DNA of 21,979 nt from a virus. Positions 14,475 through 21,979 of the stretch are shown here, piece after piece (the first letter of the stretch is position 1; the number at the start of each line of letters is the position of its first letter). Position numbers and translations under genes: made by a program. The notes beneath the pieces were generated by a model. It was not told the origin of the DNA, did not search any database, and saw only the letters and a program-made list of their open reading frames with translations. The DNA lies in the IMG/VR virus record IMGVR_UViG_3300017669_000008, positions 1-21,979 of that record. One strand, given 5' to 3'.

Positions 14475-15920
14475 GGTGGGGTCTCCTTGGCGAGCCAGTC
14501 GTTCTCCGCGTGAAACGTGACGCTGATCTCGCTGGCCGCGCCGTCGAAGGTGATCTTGGTGATCAGGAGCTTTAGGAACGCGGCCTGCTCGCGGGTCGTG
14601 AGGGCGCTCCACAACGGTTCGAACTCGGCCATCGCCGCCTCGGTTTCTTCACGCCCGACGAGTTTCTGGCGCAGGCGGTTGACGTCGTCGTCGATCGCCA
14701 GGAGCCGTCCCCGCGCCTCGCGTTCGCGGCCGTCGATGTCCGCCAATCGCGCCCGCGCCGCGTCCGTGCCCGCCCCCTCGGCCGTGAGCCGCGTGCTCGA
14801 CTACCAGCCGCACGAGCTGCCGGTCGCGCCCGACCGTCTTGATGCGGCCGACGACGAACTGCTCGAGCTGATCGGCGGGAATCGACTTGCTGTCGCACCG
14901 GTCGTACCCGCGGTCTTGCGCGTTCGAGCAGACGTAGTAGCGGTAACGCTTGGTGTTCTGCGTCGAAAACGAGTGCAGCATTGGGCGGTTGCAGCCCTTG
15001 CACCACAGCAGCCCCTTGAGCAGGGCACCGTGCATGTTGTTGACCTCCGACCCGCCGGTCACGGCGTTGAAGCGGAGCTTGGCCTGCACGAGGTCCCACG
15101 TCTCCTTGTCGACGATCGCCTGGTGCTCCCCGTCGTACACGTCTTTGTGGTGCGCGACCTTCCCGATGTAGAGGACGTTGGTGAGCATGGTGTAGAGCAG
15201 GGAGCGGTTGATCGCTAGCCCGCCGATTGCGCGACCGTCCTTGGTGGTCCACTTCTTCGTCGTCCAGCCGCGCTTCTCCAGGTCGTGGACGACGCGGCGG
15301 ATGGTCTCGCACCGCAGGTACGTGCGGAAGACCTCCCGCACCTGGCAGGCCTCTCCCTCGTTCACGACGAGCTTGCTGCCCACGTTGTCGTAACCGAGCA
15401 CGGGCCGGCCGCCCGCGTACTTGCCCCGCTTGCGGGCGGCGGCGATCTTGTCCCGCGTGCGCTCCGAGATGATCTCTCGCTCGAACTGCGCGAACGAGAG
15501 CAGGATGTTCAACGTCAGCCGCCCCATCGAATGGGTTGTGTTGAACTGCTGGGTGACGGAGACAAACGACACCTTGTGCCGGTCGTACACCTCCATCATC
15601 TTCACGAAGTCTGTAAGGGACCGCGAGAGACGGTCCACCTTGTAGACCACCACGCAGTCAACCACGCCGGCGGCGATGTCGTTCATGAGGCGGCGTAGCG
15701 CGGGGCGCTCCATGTTGCCGCCCGTAAATCCACCGTCGTCGTACTTGGTCGGGAGGCAGACCCAGCCCTCGTTCTTCTGGCTCGCGATGTACGCCTCGCC
15801 GCTCTCACGTTGGGCATCCAGCGAGTTGAACTCTTGGTCAAGCCCCTCGTCGCTGCTCTTGCGGGTGTAGATCGCGCAGCGGACGCGGGGCGTTGCTGGC
15901 GTGGAGGTACGCCCGCTCAT
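14453..15920 (-). pseudogene. Large serine recombinase, broken by a frameshift near its C-terminus
   Basis: The ATG at 15920 overlaps the DUF2924 stop (ATGA), with GGGGAGG seven bases upstream. The resolvase/invertase catalytic domain shows CAIYTRKSSDEGLDQ with nucleophile S22, then VVVYKVDRLSRSLTDF and LLSFAQFEREIISERTRDKI. A recombinase domain and a zinc ribbon follow (LLWCKGCNRPM, YYVCSNAQDRGYDRC). After LVRLVVEH, near 14792-14797, the frame shifts. The other frame continues in the expected way (TRLTAEGAGTDAARARLADI), through a coiled coil to FLKLLITKITFDG. The gene length is 3n+1. Losing two bases (CACACG to CACG) would explain it. Intact, the enzyme would integrate or excise the element; the shift removes only the coiled-coil C-terminus. 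It may be real decay or an assembly indel. Confidence 0.9.
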
Positions 15921-16456
15921 GCCGACACCTCCCCGGCCGTAGGTTCGCTGGCAGCCGGACGGTTGCCTCGGTCGATACCGAAGAACCGGTTCCCGTTCCA
16001 GTGGTTGCCCGTCGCGGCGTTGGCCACCGCAGAGAGGGACCTGTAGACACGTCCGTCCCATTCGAATCCGTCGGCTCGGACGAGCACCACGATTCGCGTT
16101 CCTTTGTAGTCTTTGGTGATAATGGTGCCAACCGCTGGGCGTGCGAACTTTGCGGGCTGCCGGAAGGTCCCCAGCGCCGCAACTTCGGGCGCAAGCGGAG
16201 CGGGCTCCGCTGTTCGCATCGACGGTGCCCTCACACGCACGTCGGCGTCGTTGGCCAGCGCGTCGGCGCGCAGGCGGGCGCGCTCCGTTAGGCCGCCTTC
16301 CGCGTTGGCCTGCATACGCCACGCTACGCGCTTCAGCAGGTTCTCCCGGTTGTTGGTCGACGGTTCTTCGCCGTAGACCTCGATGTACTTCTCCTTGAGT
16401 TCGGCGGTTCGCAGGTTCACCAGCGACCGGATCTGTGCCGACAATCGTCCGTTCAT
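15917..16456 (-). CDS. DUF2924 protein of the recombinase cassette
   Basis: The protein has 179 residues. ATG 16456 is preceded by GAGGTG four bases upstream, and both ends overlap neighbours by four bases (ATGA). The N-terminal helical part (LRTAELKEKYIEVYGEEPS, ENLLKRVAWRMQANAEG) and the C-terminal part (VGTIITKDYKGTRIVVLVRA, YRSLSAVANAATG, HWNGNRFFGI) match DUF2924. I know this family mainly as genes placed directly before large serine recombinases. Its function is unproven; DNA binding at the attachment site is a reasonable guess. Confidence 0.9.
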   Translation of the reverse strand: MNGRLSAQIRSLVNLRTAELKEKYIEVYGEEPSTNNRENLLKRVAWRMQANAEGGLTERARLRADALANDADVRVRAPSMRTAEPAPLAPEVAALGTFRQPAKFARPAVGTIITKDYKGTRIVVLVRADGFEWDGRVYRSLSAVANAATGNHWNGNRFFGIDRGNRPAASEPTAGEVSA

Positions 16457-16653: not shown

Positions 16654-16737
16654 CGCTGCCTCGCGGGCGCAAGGCTGGGGGACGGTTGGGCGGATCAAGG
16701 GGAGTGCTCCGGTTTCGGGATGCGGGGTTTGGGGCCC

Positions 16738-16776
16738 CTACCAGACATCTCGCCGCCGGTGTCTCGATTTCACGAC
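16738..16776 (-). promoter_or_regulatory. Shared 39-nt element, copy B, before the recombinase cassette
   Basis: This matches copy A (11057-11095) at 32 of 39 positions without gaps, in the same orientation. The conserved blocks on the minus strand are GTCGTGAAA, GGCGAGATG and CTGGTAG. It lies about 85 bp upstream of the small ORF of the recombinase cassette and 33 bp before the divergent 399-aa gene. It may be a shared promoter or operator, or a recombinase site. Confidence 0.55.
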
Positions 16777-16808
16777 TTTCCGCCGTAGTCGTGCGGACGG
16801 CCATCGCA

Positions 16809-18008
16809 ATGGCTCCAACGATCTCCGCAGACATGAACGCAACTGACGCCATACAGATCGTTCAACCGGCGACACTCGACCAGGTGGTAATGTCGATGCT
16901 CGACTCCCAGATCGGAACAACTCAGCTACTCGCTGAAGAGCTGGATGGCACGGGGAGCCTGGGCCAGCCGTTTGTTGACGCGATGAATCGACTGCTCGCG
17001 CATTTGGTGAACGGAGACGCCGCCTCCCGTGATGCCGTCGCGCGAACGCTGCCCCCGGTGTACTCGAGTTTTCTCGACATCTTGTCTGTTAGACGGCAGG
17101 ACCACGCGGCCACGGTCCGCATGGCCAGGTGCTGGTTGGCGCACTTGGTGACGGACCGAATGGCCAGCGGAAACCTATCTCCTTTGGCATCAGTCGTCGG
17201 CAGCCGGTTATTGCAACGCTTCCCGAAACTGCAGGACCATTTGAATGACGACGGACTGATCCGATTGACGCCTGAGCTCAAGTTCGATCGTCATGGGGTG
17301 GTTTTCGACGGTCACCTCATCCGCTATCACCCGTTCATTGGCGTGAGTCGAGCTTCTTCGCCCGAGTATGACCTGCTAGCCATGCTCTGTGACCATGCGG
17401 CCCGAACGAGCAACGACGTATCGATTGCGATCGACGGCAGCCGCATTATTCCAGCGGAGAAGGCACAGATGTACCTGCTTGAAGACCACTGGCGGGGGCG
17501 GCCGTTCATGCGAGGCGACCTCGATGATCCGCACGCTCTTGGCGTCACAATTCACACTGCACCCGATATCAGTACCGCTAAGGACATCGCCGCTGCGTGC
17601 ATGTTGGCTGGCATTCAGCGCACTGAGTTCATCTGGAAACACAAAGAGAGTGTCAAGACGTTCGAAGCGGAAGAGGTCATGGTTGCAGAGAGGGACCGGC
17701 GCGGTCGGTATCTGCATGCTGAATACAAACTCGCAAACAAGCCTGAGCACAATCACTTTCGGCATCTCGACGGTGCCGTAATGGTTTATTCTCCTGCTGA
17801 CGAACAGACCCGCCGTCAAGCCTCTTGCGTGCTGCCCAAGACTCCTCGTGCAGCGTGCAAGCCAAAGCTGTTTCGCATAGACGGCAACATGACAGTGGAG
17901 CATTGGACCACAGCACTTTGCCTGTTCTTTCGTGGCAACCCGCTCGTGCTCGAGTACCTCGCGGGCGAAACGGGACCCTCGGTGGACACGATAACCACCG
18001 CACCATGA
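16809..18008 (+). CDS. Unrecognised 399-aa cargo protein
   Basis: ATG 16809 is chosen although its ribosome site is weak; ATG 16833 is the main alternative. The N-terminal half is helical (PATLDQVVMSMLDSQIGTTQ, GQPFVDAMNRLLAHLVNGDA, ARCWLAHLVTDRMASGN). The second half is mixed (FDGHLIRYHPFIGVSRASS, YLLEDHWRGRPFMRGDLDDP, HALGVTIHTAPD, KPEHNHFRHLDGAVMVYSPA, VEHWTTALCLFFRGNPLVL). There is no signal peptide, membrane helix or P-loop. Its base composition appears less GC-rich than that of its neighbours, which suggests separate acquisition. It converges on the SLOG gene with one base between the two stop codons. I do not recognise the family. Its position makes it a candidate third component or an independent cargo gene. 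Confidence 0.6.
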   Translation: MAPTISADMNATDAIQIVQPATLDQVVMSMLDSQIGTTQLLAEELDGTGSLGQPFVDAMNRLLAHLVNGDAASRDAVARTLPPVYSSFLDILSVRRQDHAATVRMARCWLAHLVTDRMASGNLSPLASVVGSRLLQRFPKLQDHLNDDGLIRLTPELKFDRHGVVFDGHLIRYHPFIGVSRASSPEYDLLAMLCDHAARTSNDVSIAIDGSRIIPAEKAQMYLLEDHWRGRPFMRGDLDDPHALGVTIHTAPDISTAKDIAAACMLAGIQRTEFIWKHKESVKTFEAEEVMVAERDRRGRYLHAEYKLANKPEHNHFRHLDGAVMVYSPADEQTRRQASCVLPKTPRAACKPKLFRIDGNMTVEHWTTALCLFFRGNPLVLEYLAGETGPSVDTITTAP

Positions 18009-18009
18009 C

Positions 18010-18609
18010 TCAATCGCGGCGACGCACACCTCGATGGTGGTCTGCGAAGCGGGCAAGCCGATCCGCAAGAATGCGAACGACGTCGTCAGCCGAGTCCGCA
18101 CCGAAGATCCGATCATCCGCTTCGTTCGGGTAACGAATGCGCTCGTCCACTCGCTGGTCGGCCATTCGTCCGCTCCAGCCCTCGACACGCATGCCGATGA
18201 TTAGCCGCTTGTATATCCAGGCGAAACAGATCTCCGACATCGTGCCCGCGCCCCCGCCGACGGCGATGACCGCATCGGCGTGCGCTACGACGGAGTTGCG
18301 GACATGGTCGAGGCCTGAGGCGAGCACGACATCCACGAACGCGTTTGCCTCGCCGGGATCGTGGCCGGGTACGACGCCCACCGTATCGCCAGACCGGTAC
18401 TTCGAAGACGAGCGGGCACCCCGAGAGGCCGCCTCCATCACGCCACCAAGCCCTCCCGTGAGCACGCGATAGCCAGCATCAACGAGGGCTCGACCAATGT
18501 CCTCCGCGAGCTTGTCCTTGACGGAACCCAGCTCCAGCTTGGCATCGCCGATCACCGCGATGAGCGGCCGCCGGGTCGAAGGGTGAGCAGTTTGGCTGGA
18601 TTGACTCAT
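18010..18609 (-). CDS. SLOG/LOG-fold protein (TIGR00725-like)
   Basis: The protein has 199 residues from ATG 18609, which overlaps the upstream stop (ATGA) with GGAGG seven bases before it. The Rossmann-like SLOG fold shows PLIAVIGDAKL (residues 15-25), TGGLGGVMEAASRGA (51-65), HVRNSVVAHADAVIAVGGGA (102-121) and GGGAGTMSEICFAW (118-131). This last segment is a variant of the PGGxGTxxE motif of cytokinin-activating LOG enzymes, with Gly for Pro. Members of the wider SLOG superfamily bind or cleave nucleotides, including nucleoside monophosphates and NAD- or ADP-ribose-like ligands. Coupling to the giant gene suggests that it makes, cuts or senses a nucleotide-derived molecule in the same pathway. 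Its substrate cannot be told from sequence. Confidence 0.8.
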   Translation of the reverse strand: MSQSSQTAHPSTRRPLIAVIGDAKLELGSVKDKLAEDIGRALVDAGYRVLTGGLGGVMEAASRGARSSSKYRSGDTVGVVPGHDPGEANAFVDVVLASGLDHVRNSVVAHADAVIAVGGGAGTMSEICFAWIYKRLIIGMRVEGWSGRMADQRVDERIRYPNEADDRIFGADSADDVVRILADRLARFADHHRGVRRRD

Positions 18610-21600
18610 TGGATGACCTCCGTCTTGCGCATGATCTGGGCCTCGTCGAGGCCAACAAACACTCCGCCAAGGTACGGCACCGCCGTCACCCGGACGCCCC
18701 GGAGCGACGCCAGCAACGCCATGATCATGAAATCGTGGGTAATGGCGACCACGCGCGAGCGTCCTGCCGCCTCGGCCGCCGTCAGGGCAGCATCGATTGC
18801 GGAACGGGCAACGTCGTGGCACGGGATGAGGATGTCCCGGTCAAGCGAGCCATCCATCCACGCGGTCATCAGGCCGGTCCAACCCAGCCGTCGCTTCACC
18901 AACTCATAGGCATCCGTGTCAGCAATCCGGAAGTTCACCAGTGCGTCGATCTGGCGGACTTCGGCTTCGCTCACTCCCATCGCCTCCGCAATCGCGGCCG
19001 CCGTTTCCACGGCGCGGAGCACTGGGCTTGATGCTAACAGCACTTCGCTACCGAGGGCCTTGCCCAAGCGCAGCGCTGCGTTCCGCCCCTGATCTGTCAG
19101 CCTGACCTCGTCTTTCTCCGCGGCGTTCAGACCCGCAAAGGATGGACGTTCTCCGTGGCGAAGGAACAGGACTCCGCCGTCTTGTGGCCACACGTCGGCG
19201 GACATTTGCTGCGGGTCCAAGACGGTCTCTTTCGACGCGCCGGTTTGCGGTCGGCGTGGCGACTTGGCGACTATGGCTGCAATCTGCTGCTCGCGGTCAA
19301 GTCGATCGCTCCCTTTTCCGAGCCCGGATGGTTCGTACAAGTAGAGGGGCTCACGAATCCAAGCGGGCCGTTCCGCCATCTCGACGATCGGAAGCATGAA
19401 GGCCCAGTCGACGGCGATGTCGACATAGCGAGTGCCCAACTTCAGATCGTGGTCGGGGATGGCGTCGAACAGACGCTTGCGGAATGTGCGAAGGTGTTGC
19501 CACACGTTGCCCCCGCGTGACTGCCGTGGGGCGTCGAACGCCACTGGATACTCTGCGTGCTTGTCGGTGCGGAGCATCGAGCCGACCGTCACGTCCGCGC
19601 CCTTGAGGTACTCGGTCCCCAAGCGATCCAGAACGGAGCTCCCGATGAGAGCGTCATCGAGGTCGAGGGTGATGATCACGCTGTCTGGGTTTGTGCAGAT
19701 GTGACGGATCGCCAGCGTCATGTTCGCCAGCTGTCCACGCCGCTCGCGGGGTTGGATGAGCGTGACCCGCTCACGCCAAGGCTCGATCGCCAACCGCAGG
19801 GAGTGACGAGCGAGTTCGGAAGAGCCATCGTCGATGATGACAGCACCCCAGTCGTGCCGGTGCTGGGACGCGAGCGATTCGAGGCACCGGGCGGCACGCC
19901 CCGGCGGTACGTTGCGCCCGGTGATCACGAAGACGAATGGTTCGGATCGGTTCCGGGGCACCCAAAGGAGCGGGCCGCCGACGAGCTCCACCCGCCCCAT
20001 CTGCTCTGCAGGCATGTGCCCCTGTTCCACCAGGTCCATCAGGAGCATCCAGTCCATTACCGACCGCTTGAACTCGTTCGGCGGATGGATGAACGCGGTC
20101 TGAGCGTCGCCCCCTCGCATTGACACGATGTGCCCTGCTGCGGCGGCGATGTCCATCGAGCGATGCCATGAGTGCTGTGGAGCGTCTGCATCCAGTTGGT
20201 TGGGAAATGGGCGTGCCGCCATCAACCTGGCCTTGTGGAGGAGACATCCGCGAGCCTCGACGCGCCACGGACCGCCGCCGTTGCCGGGTGTGAAGGGTTG
20301 CGACGAGGGTTGCGGGATGTTCAGCGACACGGTGACCGCAAGCGGTGTCGCCTCAATCGCCGCGATCATCTCGCCGAGATAATCGTGAACTCGGTTGCCA
20401 CGGCTAATCAGCAGGTCCGAGTCAACCTGGAGGATGTAGTCGCCCGTGCAGGTCTCCATCGCCAACAGCGGAGTTGCCAGGGGAGCACCCTGGCTCGTGT
20501 GCGTCTTGTCCGAGTCGATGCCACACCACTCTTTGACGATCCGGCGTGATTCGCCGCCGACGCCGGGCCCTTGGACGATGCGATCGATGATGCCGCGCCG
20601 CAAGAGCCGCTCGCCAGCCTCCTGGAGAGCATTCCAATCCGACCCCGCGTGCTGTCGCACAAATCCATCGCGGCGTGAATCGATGGCAAGCACTCGCTCG
20701 TCGAATGTGCGGGGACCCTCAAGCTGTGCGACCAGGTGGGCGACCTGCCGCTCGAGGGTCGCGGCTTCCATCGCGCACGTTTTGATGACGAGCGACACCG
20801 TTCGGGGCGGTTGGGGAGCCGGAATGGGTCGGCACACGAGCGTGATAAAGTCCGACGCCGGCTCGAAACGCTCAGTGTCTACGGTGCGGCTTTCAACGCG
20901 ACGATCCACTTGGATGCCGTGGCGAAGGAGGTCTCGCTCCACTCTGGCCAGCGGTCTGTGGAACTCGCGGCGGCCCGCACCGGTCTCGGCGTTCTCGGTG
21001 TACCAGAATGTGTCCTCGTAGGTCATGCCTGCCGGCAGATCCCGACGCCGATGGAGCGAAGTGGGGCCGCCGAATGTGCCGAACGGATTGCAGAACGAAA
21101 TTACTAGCAGGCCATCGTCGCGTACCGATGCGCGGAGATCCGCAAGGACCTGCTCGTATTCCGACCCGTCGTCAAGCTCGCAGATCACTAGCGAGCACAC
21201 GGCCGCGTCGAATGGGGCGTGAGACAGCGCCGTTATCCTGTCGGTGGTGAGGATCAGGTTCTTCGGGACAGGGCCCTGTTCCGCCCACTTCGCGGGCATC
21301 CCTTCGCCGGGATCGAACCCGACCGTCTGCAGACCCGCTTCGGCAAGGCGGCGTGCGCTTCGTGCCTTCTTGCCGCATCCGTAGTCAAGGACTCGCTTCG
21401 CCGGGGACTTGAGGAGGATGTCGTCAACCGCTGCAGCAACGATCCGCGTCGCGGAGGGCTTATCCTCGTTCAGCGCCATCCAGAACCGGCTGAATCCATC
21501 GAGCTCGGGAAGTGCCTTGTCTGTGAGTGCGCGTCGCATCAGCTCTTCGAGGTCGGCGCGGTGGGGCCATCGCCAGGTCAGCCATGCTCGCTCGGCCATC

Positions 21601-21979
21601 GAGCGATAGCCCGCGTCCGTAAACGAACGGACGTCCGAGCCGTAGTCAATGAGCTTGAGACCGGTCGCCGACACCCGTAGGTTCTTAGGGTGCATGTTTC
21701 TGAAAACGATGCCGTTGGCCTTGCACTCTCGCAGCAGCCCGATGATCTCTGTCCCACGCCCGCCAGCGTACGGCTCGCTCGGCTCGAACGGGTACACCAC
21801 CAACAGCGTGCCGTCCTTGACCTCAACGCGCGCAAGCGGATACAGATGTTTTGCATGCTCGAACTGATCGCGAAAGTGTGTCAGCATGGCGAGCGTGTCG
21901 TGGTTCGGACGACGCTTGAGCAGATCGAAGACCTTATAGACCCGATCCTCGTCGGTGAACACGATGCCCTCCCCGCCCG
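18606..21979 (-). CDS. Multi-domain protein: kinase-like, methyltransferase, two glycosyltransferases, histidine phosphatase (5' end outside window)
   Basis: More than 1120 residues are visible; numbering is from V at 21962, and the frame continues past the window edge. Residues 1-130 are kinase-like: the glycine-rich GGEGIVF lies just before, then VYKVF (K10), FRNMHPKNLRV where HRD is expected, and LIDYG for DFG (D106). Residues 175-375 are a class I SAM methyltransferase (RVLDYGCGKK, TVGFDPG, FDAAVCSLVICELDD). Residues 387-670 look like a GT-A glycosyltransferase (TGDYILQVDSDLLISRGN). Residues 675-880 are a GT2 transferase (FVFVITGRN, VIIDDGSS, ITLDLDDALI). Residues 925-1118 are a histidine phosphatase (LFLRHGERPSF, LTDQGRNAALRLG, SPVLRAVETA, VVAITHDFM). 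The stop overlaps the SLOG start (ATGA). Together they suggest synthesis of a methylated, glycosylated phospho-metabolite or surface group. The product is unknown. Confidence 0.85.
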   Translation of the reverse strand, partial: GGEGIVFTDEDRVYKVFDLLKRRPNHDTLAMLTHFRDQFEHAKHLYPLARVEVKDGTLLVVYPFEPSEPYAGGRGTEIIGLLRECKANGIVFRNMHPKNLRVSATGLKLIDYGSDVRSFTDAGYRSMAERAWLTWRWPHRADLEELMRRALTDKALPELDGFSRFWMALNEDKPSATRIVAAAVDDILLKSPAKRVLDYGCGKKARSARRLAEAGLQTVGFDPGEGMPAKWAEQGPVPKNLILTTDRITALSHAPFDAAVCSLVICELDDGSEYEQVLADLRASVRDDGLLVISFCNPFGTFGGPTSLHRRRDLPAGMTYEDTFWYTENAETGAGRREFHRPLARVERDLLRHGIQVDRRVESRTVDTERFEPASDFITLVCRPIPAPQPPRTVSLVIKTCAMEAATLERQVAHLVAQLEGPRTFDERVLAIDSRRDGFVRQHAGSDWNALQEAGERLLRRGIIDRIVQGPGVGGESRRIVKEWCGIDSDKTHTSQGAPLATPLLAMETCTGDYILQVDSDLLISRGNRVHDYLGEMIAAIEATPLAVTVSLNIPQPSSQPFTPGNGGGPWRVEARGCLLHKARLMAARPFPNQLDADAPQHSWHRSMDIAAAAGHIVSMRGGDAQTAFIHPPNEFKRSVMDWMLLMDLVEQGHMPAEQMGRVELVGGPLLWVPRNRSEPFVFVITGRNVPPGRAARCLESLASQHRHDWGAVIIDDGSSELARHSLRLAIEPWRERVTLIQPRERRGQLANMTLAIRHICTNPDSVIITLDLDDALIGSSVLDRLGTEYLKGADVTVGSMLRTDKHAEYPVAFDAPRQSRGGNVWQHLRTFRKRLFDAIPDHDLKLGTRYVDIAVDWAFMLPIVEMAERPAWIREPLYLYEPSGLGKGSDRLDREQQIAAIVAKSPRRPQTGASKETVLDPQQMSADVWPQDGGVLFLRHGERPSFAGLNAAEKDEVRLTDQGRNAALRLGKALGSEVLLASSPVLRAVETAAAIAEAMGVSEAEVRQIDALVNFRIADTDAYELVKRRLGWTGLMTAWMDGSLDRDILIPCHDVARSAIDAALTAAEAAGRSRVVAITHDFMIMALLASLRGVRVTAVPYLGGVFVGLDEAQIMRKTEVIQ

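Follow-up and report, generated by a model that had tools for sequence, protein, structure and literature searches.

A predicted seven-module glycosyltransferase protein and its SLOG partner are carried as cargo by planctomycete prophages

The virus contig IMGVR_UViG_3300017669_000008, a linear database record of 21,979 bp that was analysed whole and is referred to here as the window, ends within a gene for a very large protein that joins several enzyme domains in one chain, and the stop codon of this gene overlaps the start of a gene for a protein of the SLOG fold. The locus raises two questions: whether these two genes, referred to below as the giant and the SLOG gene and together as the cassette, are true cargo of a phage, and what they might make. 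We find that planctomycete prophages and integrative elements carry the cassette as a mobile cargo unit. Its arrangement appears to be new in kind, and its parts belong to known enzyme families.

Results and Discussion

The giant gene and its full length

The window holds the following part of the giant gene, with residues numbered from the contig end.

18606..21977, minus strand: giant multi-enzyme gene, truncated at its 5' end by the contig end; 1,123 of about 2,000 amino acids (aa), stop-free over 1,123 codons
21468..21977, minus strand: module C (residues 1-170), kinase-like, with Asn94 at the position of the catalytic HRD Asp
20823..21467, minus strand: module D (residues 171-385), class I S-adenosylmethionine (SAM) methyltransferase; PF13489 at 4.7e-8, 33.4 bits against a cut-off of 27
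19953..20822, minus strand: module E1 (residues 386-675), GT-A glycosyltransferase with an invariant DXD at 519-521
19233..19952, minus strand: module E2 (residues 676-915), GT-A/GT2 glycosyltransferase; PF00535 (Glycos_transf_2) at 2e-11, with D772, D774 and D775 invariant
18663..19190, minus strand: module F (residues 930-1105), histidine phosphatase of branch 1; PF00300 (His_Phos_1) at 4.8e-13, 49.7 bits against a cut-off of 21.7

The original prediction described this chain as a complete line of five domains, which the comparison with relatives does not bear out: the contig end truncates the gene, and the full chain in relatives has seven domains. Full-length relatives are 1,964-2,007 aa long and 60-90% identical; copies from Phycisphaerales have 2,007 aa and are 89-90% identical to the window part over the shared stretch, and the two homologues on virus contigs (L002, 64% identical; L007, 67%) both have 1,964 aa. 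These relatives run 840-885 residues further towards the N-terminus and add two GT-A domains, A and B. By homology, the full giant is predicted to consist of a glycosyltransferase (A), a second glycosyltransferase (B), a kinase-like domain (C), a SAM methyltransferase (D), two further glycosyltransferases (E1 and E2) and a histidine phosphatase (F), in that order. A GTG codon at 21962, given as the start in a list of open reading frames (ORFs), was rejected because it lies inside the kinase glycine loop and the relatives extend upstream of it.

The ratio of nonsynonymous to synonymous substitution rates (dN/dS) of the giant is 0.13-0.15 between the window and three relatives, and 0.13-0.17 across the comparisons made, which shows strong purifying selection and argues that this is not a chance frame. 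The predicted structure of the window part has a mean predicted local distance difference test (pLDDT) score of 86.5. A fusion created by misassembly was considered and rejected, since the chain is uninterrupted in about 20 relatives, one of them in a complete chromosome. One copy (G661:C2, near 299620) is interrupted between E2 and F and is probably decaying or affected by a sequencing error.

Modules of the giant

All five domain types named in the original prediction are present in the window, although one of them departs from its expected catalytic motif. Module C has no Pfam match in the window giant and is recognised from relatives and from the predicted structure; its profile matches protein kinases in the PDB weakly (2.7e-5), yet its 'crNlhPkN' aligns with 'HRDVKPHN'. 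The catalytic Asp of the HRD/HGD motif is replaced by Asn in all 26 aligned sequences, and by Asn also in weaker relatives from Pseudoalteromonas and Salinivibrio, whereas Lys15, Asn99 and Asp111 are kept. The invariance of this Asn suggests that module C is not an ordinary kinase.

Four modules are glycosyltransferases of the GT-A type, A and E2 by Pfam GT2 matches (that of A in full-length relatives) and B and E1 by fold. Module B has no match in Pfam and no meaningful sequence match in the PDB, and its model (pLDDT 88) matches the GT-A enzymes hyaluronan synthase, TarP, chondroitin polymerase and GtrB, which places the modelled domain in the GT-A fold. Module E1 likewise has no Pfam match in the window giant, and its assignment comes from relatives and the predicted structure. 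The acidic DXD or DDD-type motifs of all four modules are invariant in 25-26 aligned sequences. Among PDB folds, the window protein is best matched by the two-GT-A polymerase of Escherichia coli K4, the chondroitin polymerase K4CP (2z86/2z87), which covers E1-E2 over 575 columns and resembles it in having a tandem GT-A pair in one soluble chain; however, the two domain arrangements are not superposable (template modelling score 0.31, root-mean-square deviation 21), and the giant has four GT-A domains, a kinase-like domain, a methyltransferase, a phosphatase and a partner of the SLOG fold.

Module D has PDB profile matches down to 6e-12, and its SAM-binding motif is invariant among the aligned relatives. 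Module F carries an RHGE motif and the second His (H941 and H1081) and is found, within the giant family, only in the Phycisphaerales and prophage clade. The order A-B-C-D-E1-E2, with or without F, is kept across phyla at 33-90% identity. The proposal of a modular sugar-modifying enzyme line gains support from these four GT-A domains, their invariant motifs and the conserved module order.

Coupling of the SLOG gene to the giant

The junction of the two genes is as follows.

18606..18609, minus strand: 4-nt ATGA overlap of the giant TGA stop and the SLOG ATG start, sequence GAGGTCATCCAATGAGTCAATC
18010..18609, minus strand: SLOG gene, 199 aa, SLOG cluster 4, TIGR00725-like; PF18306 at 1.8e-30, 106 bits against a cut-off of 26.3

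The overlap pointed out in the original prediction is thus present, and an identical 4-nt overlap of giant and SLOG gene occurs in ten relatives. A SLOG gene lies directly downstream of the giant in 23 of the 28 readable loci, from planctomycetes, proteobacteria and myxobacteria, with the window and the virus copies counted. Independent evidence comes from three loci (L067, L070 and L077) in which SLOG and module C are fused in one protein, which argues that the SLOG and kinase-like domains work together.

The SLOG protein shares its fold, the GGxxGTxxE motif and the preceding Arg with the molybdenum cofactor (Moco) carrier proteins and the LOG phosphoribohydrolases (TIGR00725, TIGR00730, PF18306). 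Its closest solved relative is a Moco carrier protein (1.7e-15), and it scores just under the TIGR00725 cut-off (104.5 against 106.9) and far under those for LOG cytokinin phosphoribohydrolases (NF058542, 30.3 against 300 bits; TIGR00730, 41 against 96.35); it differs from both groups also in being coupled to or fused with a giant. Being closest to a Moco carrier, the protein may bind rather than cleave its ligand; it stands nearest to the Moco-carrier branch, not to the known SLOG families linked to defence.

The cassette comprises two genes and sometimes three. A separate methyltransferase gene lies between giant and SLOG gene in a sub-clade (L002, L007, L037, G661 and G733; positions 7279-7992 in L002 and 12088-12876 in L007, also L139 and L141); the window does not have it.

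The cassette as prophage cargo

In prophages, the cassette sits between a tRNA-Asn attachment site and the integrase gene. On the planctomycete chromosome contig G733 the order is host genes, tRNA-Asn, cassette, a DUF2924 gene, integrase and phage replication genes, so that the cassette lies between the attachment site and the phage genes. Locus L037 reads integrase, DUF2924, cassette, tRNA-Asn and, beyond it, an apparent host gene for release factor 1, and the end of the L002 contig retains the 3' half of tRNA-Asn. In the window, the attachment side lies beyond the contig end. A related phage, L013, has no cassette and provides the empty site: its positions 116-406 align with 116-428 of L002 and its positions 434-814 with 8660-9041 of L002, such that about 8.2 kb in L002 stand where L013 has 27 bp. 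In L007 the cassette is in the opposite orientation relative to the integrase. The suggestion that the genes are cargo of a mobile element is borne out by the gene order in G733 and L037 and by the empty site in L013.

The sister phage L009 carries other genes in the same slot upstream of the integrase, including a helicase-like protein and other ORFs, which suggests that this slot is a hot spot for cargo. Immediately upstream of the giant, G661 and G733 have a DUF4258 gene (PF14076, 7.6e-6; L138:15705-16067 and the matching region of G733), and L002 has similar sequence upstream. The contig that holds L007 also holds a second such phage with its own DUF2924 and integrase genes (L025; IMGVR_UViG_3300048834_001178, bases 57033-77032), and has the look of tandem prophages.

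Distribution and subtypes

When 84,980 species genomes were searched with modules A-B-C, 80 loci came up, and the weakest among them are ordinary GT2 genes; a search of viral contigs with a loose profile, A4, found only the two copies already known. Within the Planctomycetota, 11 of 294 genomes match A-B-C at E<=1e-40, roughly half of them with full type I. Modules C-E are matched in five of 201 genomes of the planctomycete order to which CP054186.1 belongs and in two of 298 genomes of the alphaproteobacterial family of a Roseovarius genome, and the cassette is therefore accessory rather than housekeeping. Two explanations that would have made the locus ordinary, a conserved housekeeping pathway of the host lineage and a fusion produced by assembly, thus fail, the first on the five genomes in 201 and the second on the roughly 20 uninterrupted relatives.

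Three subtypes can be distinguished. Type I is A-B-C-D-E1-E2 followed by SLOG, although L042 and L052 lack E1-E2. In L056 a polysaccharide deacetylase tail (Pfam match) takes the place of F; the tail of L054 resembles it by eye and has no Pfam match. A sugar-nucleotide epimerase gene neighbours some relatives. Type II has A-C-B (or A-B), followed in 11 of 15 loci by genes for GTP cyclohydrolase II, asparagine synthase and an acetyltransferase, and type III has A with a radical SAM gene and a glycosyltransferase-C-E protein. The type II operon, with a giant that reads glycosyltransferase, kinase-like domain, glycosyltransferase, occurs in L065, L066, L072 and other gamma-proteobacterial loci, and on plasmid NZ_CP032092.1 it stands right after the transfer genes. 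It looks like a small-molecule gene cluster, and no description of it was found in the open literature.

Proposed function and alternatives

In known families, GT-A domains take the sugars that they transfer from sugar nucleotides, SAM methyltransferases add methyl groups, and histidine phosphatases remove phosphate. We favour, with confidence a little short of even, a reading in which the giant is a cytosolic assembly line for a methylated, oligosaccharide-like conjugate. The four glycosyltransferases would attach several sugars, in fixed sequence, to a single acceptor. The methyltransferase, kinase-like domain and phosphatase (a deacetylase in relatives) would trim or cap the sugar chain, and the SLOG protein would bind or cleave an intermediate of nucleotide type that supplies the acceptor or regenerates it. 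The outcome would be a small, decorated glycoconjugate of intracellular origin, and the cassette, as cargo, would most likely be of use to the element or to its host in conflicts with other phages or bacteria. An intracellular product is favoured because, at the loci viewed and without use of a membrane-segment predictor, no gene for a flippase, polymerase or exporter was seen as a conserved neighbour of the cassette. The SLOG gene of type I and the GTP cyclohydrolase II of type II hint at a nucleotide-derived acceptor; the deacetylase domain of L056 and the neighbouring epimerase fit sugar chemistry, and the three type II neighbours fit a small nucleotide-derived molecule.

Several points weigh against this reading. 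The deacetylase and the polymerase-like folds would suit a surface polysaccharide equally well. Module F and the deacetylase are not in most relatives, and SLOG is lacking in five of the 28 readable loci. The SLOG protein, moreover, is nearer to a cofactor-binding branch than to the phosphoribohydrolase LOG branch, so that cleavage is not assured, and defence genes are common neighbours only at planctomycete loci.

The strongest of the alternatives is lysogenic conversion, in which the giant would make a cell-surface glycan, or cap one, and the lysogen thereby escape recognition by related phages. The prophage location, the deacetylase of one relative (L056), and four GT-A domains whose best fold matches are polysaccharide and teichoic-acid enzymes all agree with it, and there are partial precedents. 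Phage O-antigen conversion cassettes (gtrABC) are prophage cargo near the attachment site with glycosyltransferase genes, although the cassette described here has a single giant chain, and neither a GtrA flippase nor a membrane gene of the GtrC type was recognised in it. The O-antigen polymerase WbdA and the kinase-methyltransferase terminator WbdD combine glycosyltransferases with kinase and methyltransferase domains, and the methyltransferase region of WbdD is among the many matches of the giant's profile; however, the kinase residues of WbdD are canonical and its methyltransferase precedes its kinase, whereas the giant is a single chain with the kinase-like domain first and Asn for Asp. With its methyltransferase only one match of many and its domains in reverse order, WbdD was rejected as a direct relative and is kept as an analogy. 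Given also that no flippase, polymerase or exporter gene was seen to be conserved next to the cassette at the loci viewed, and that copies stand alone in ordinary chromosomal regions outside prophages, we consider lysogenic conversion possible but rather improbable.

A dedicated intracellular anti-phage system, with SLOG sensing or making a nucleotide signal and the giant as effector or modifier, would account for the coupling of the two genes and for some striking neighbours. In the complete genome CP054186.1 (L033) a DISARM/Druantia-like cluster adjoins the cassette directly downstream, with 54 bp between the end of the SLOG gene and DrmD; L032 is arranged likewise, and AbiE with methylase or restriction genes is near the cassette in L031 and G661. 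The vehicle in L033 has an integrase and a primase, but nothing in it was found to match the terminase of the window. DISARM and Druantia have no domain in common with the cassette, no nuclease, pore or NADase domain was recognised in it by Pfam, and ordinary genes flank most non-planctomycete copies. Membership in a PADLOC system was rejected, as the giant gave only weak partial matches (mad2, 1.6e-5; PD-T4-6, 0.0098) and the SLOG protein none. General enrichment in defence islands was rejected on a tally, made without a matched control set, of 101 neighbours pooled from 21 mostly non-prophage loci, which are mixed and not dominated by defence genes. The nucleotide-derived signal or anti-phage metabolite that had been suggested for the locus therefore finds little encouragement in PADLOC, in the pooled neighbours or in a SLOG protein nearest to a Moco carrier, and we regard such a system as unlikely. 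Hypermodification of a DNA or RNA base by the glycosyltransferases is much less likely again: the window phage also has a ParB-methyltransferase gene, and SLOG proteins and GTP cyclohydrolase II act on nucleotides or purines, but no base-hydroxylating enzyme, thymidylate-synthase relative or DNA-binding domain was recognised in the cassette by Pfam, and some copies in bacterial chromosomes have no phage genes close by. That the window shows merely a host housekeeping gene or an assembly artefact, as its place at the contig end beyond the integrase might suggest, is refuted for practical purposes by the host tRNA-Asn outside the cassette in G733 and L037, the empty site, the intact copies in about 20 genomes and the scarcity within the order.

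Returning to the assembly line, the wider claim, which we hold only tentatively, is that the cassette represents a new class of mobile single-chain biosynthetic system, which, together with a SLOG protein, would assemble sugars in several steps on a nucleotide-derived acceptor and spread with prophages as a chemical weapon or phage shield, its sister subtypes exchanging SLOG for GTP cyclohydrolase II, asparagine synthase and acetyltransferase or for a radical SAM enzyme. No known system matches the cassette architecture in Pfam, NCBIfam, PADLOC or PHROGs, and the architecture is undescribed in the open literature that we found; a 2015 survey of SLOG proteins lies outside that literature and may mention it. 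If the proposal is right, temperate phages carry a glycoconjugate assembly-line enzyme loosely like the modular peptide or polyketide synthases, which would open a testable way to a new molecule and to a trait of a new kind conferred by prophages. Should the product prove to be an ordinary glycan, the architecture and its behaviour as cargo are still absent from the family libraries and literature searched. The family spans several phyla and contains a GT-A domain (B) missed by sequence libraries and a kinase-like domain with an invariant Asn.

The phage and its other genes

The window, being a linear record, is probably a fragment of a virus genome. Almost all of its phage genes are on the minus strand, and they include a terminase, a ParB-methyltransferase, a primase, a helicase, a Sak4-like protein and the two genes next to the cassette that are listed here.

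14649..15956, minus strand (start approximate): serine-recombinase integrase; phrog_95 integrase at 7e-104
15917..16456, minus strand: DUF2924-type gene, partner of the integrase; phrog_11806 at 7e-35, with the pairing repeated in sister phages

The name DUF2924 for the second of these is our assumption and was not taken from a Pfam scan. The host, to judge from sequence similarity, is probably a bacterium of the Phycisphaerales, since the phage genes of L030 are 82-90% identical to those of the window and the cassettes 89-90% identical. A convergent ORF of 440 aa at 16686-18008, plus strand, abuts the SLOG gene (the ORF ends at 18008 and the SLOG gene at 18010). It gave no match in Pfam, NCBIfam, PADLOC or PHROGs and no homologue among the related loci compared; its GC content is lower, at about 0.58, and it is possibly a further cargo gene.

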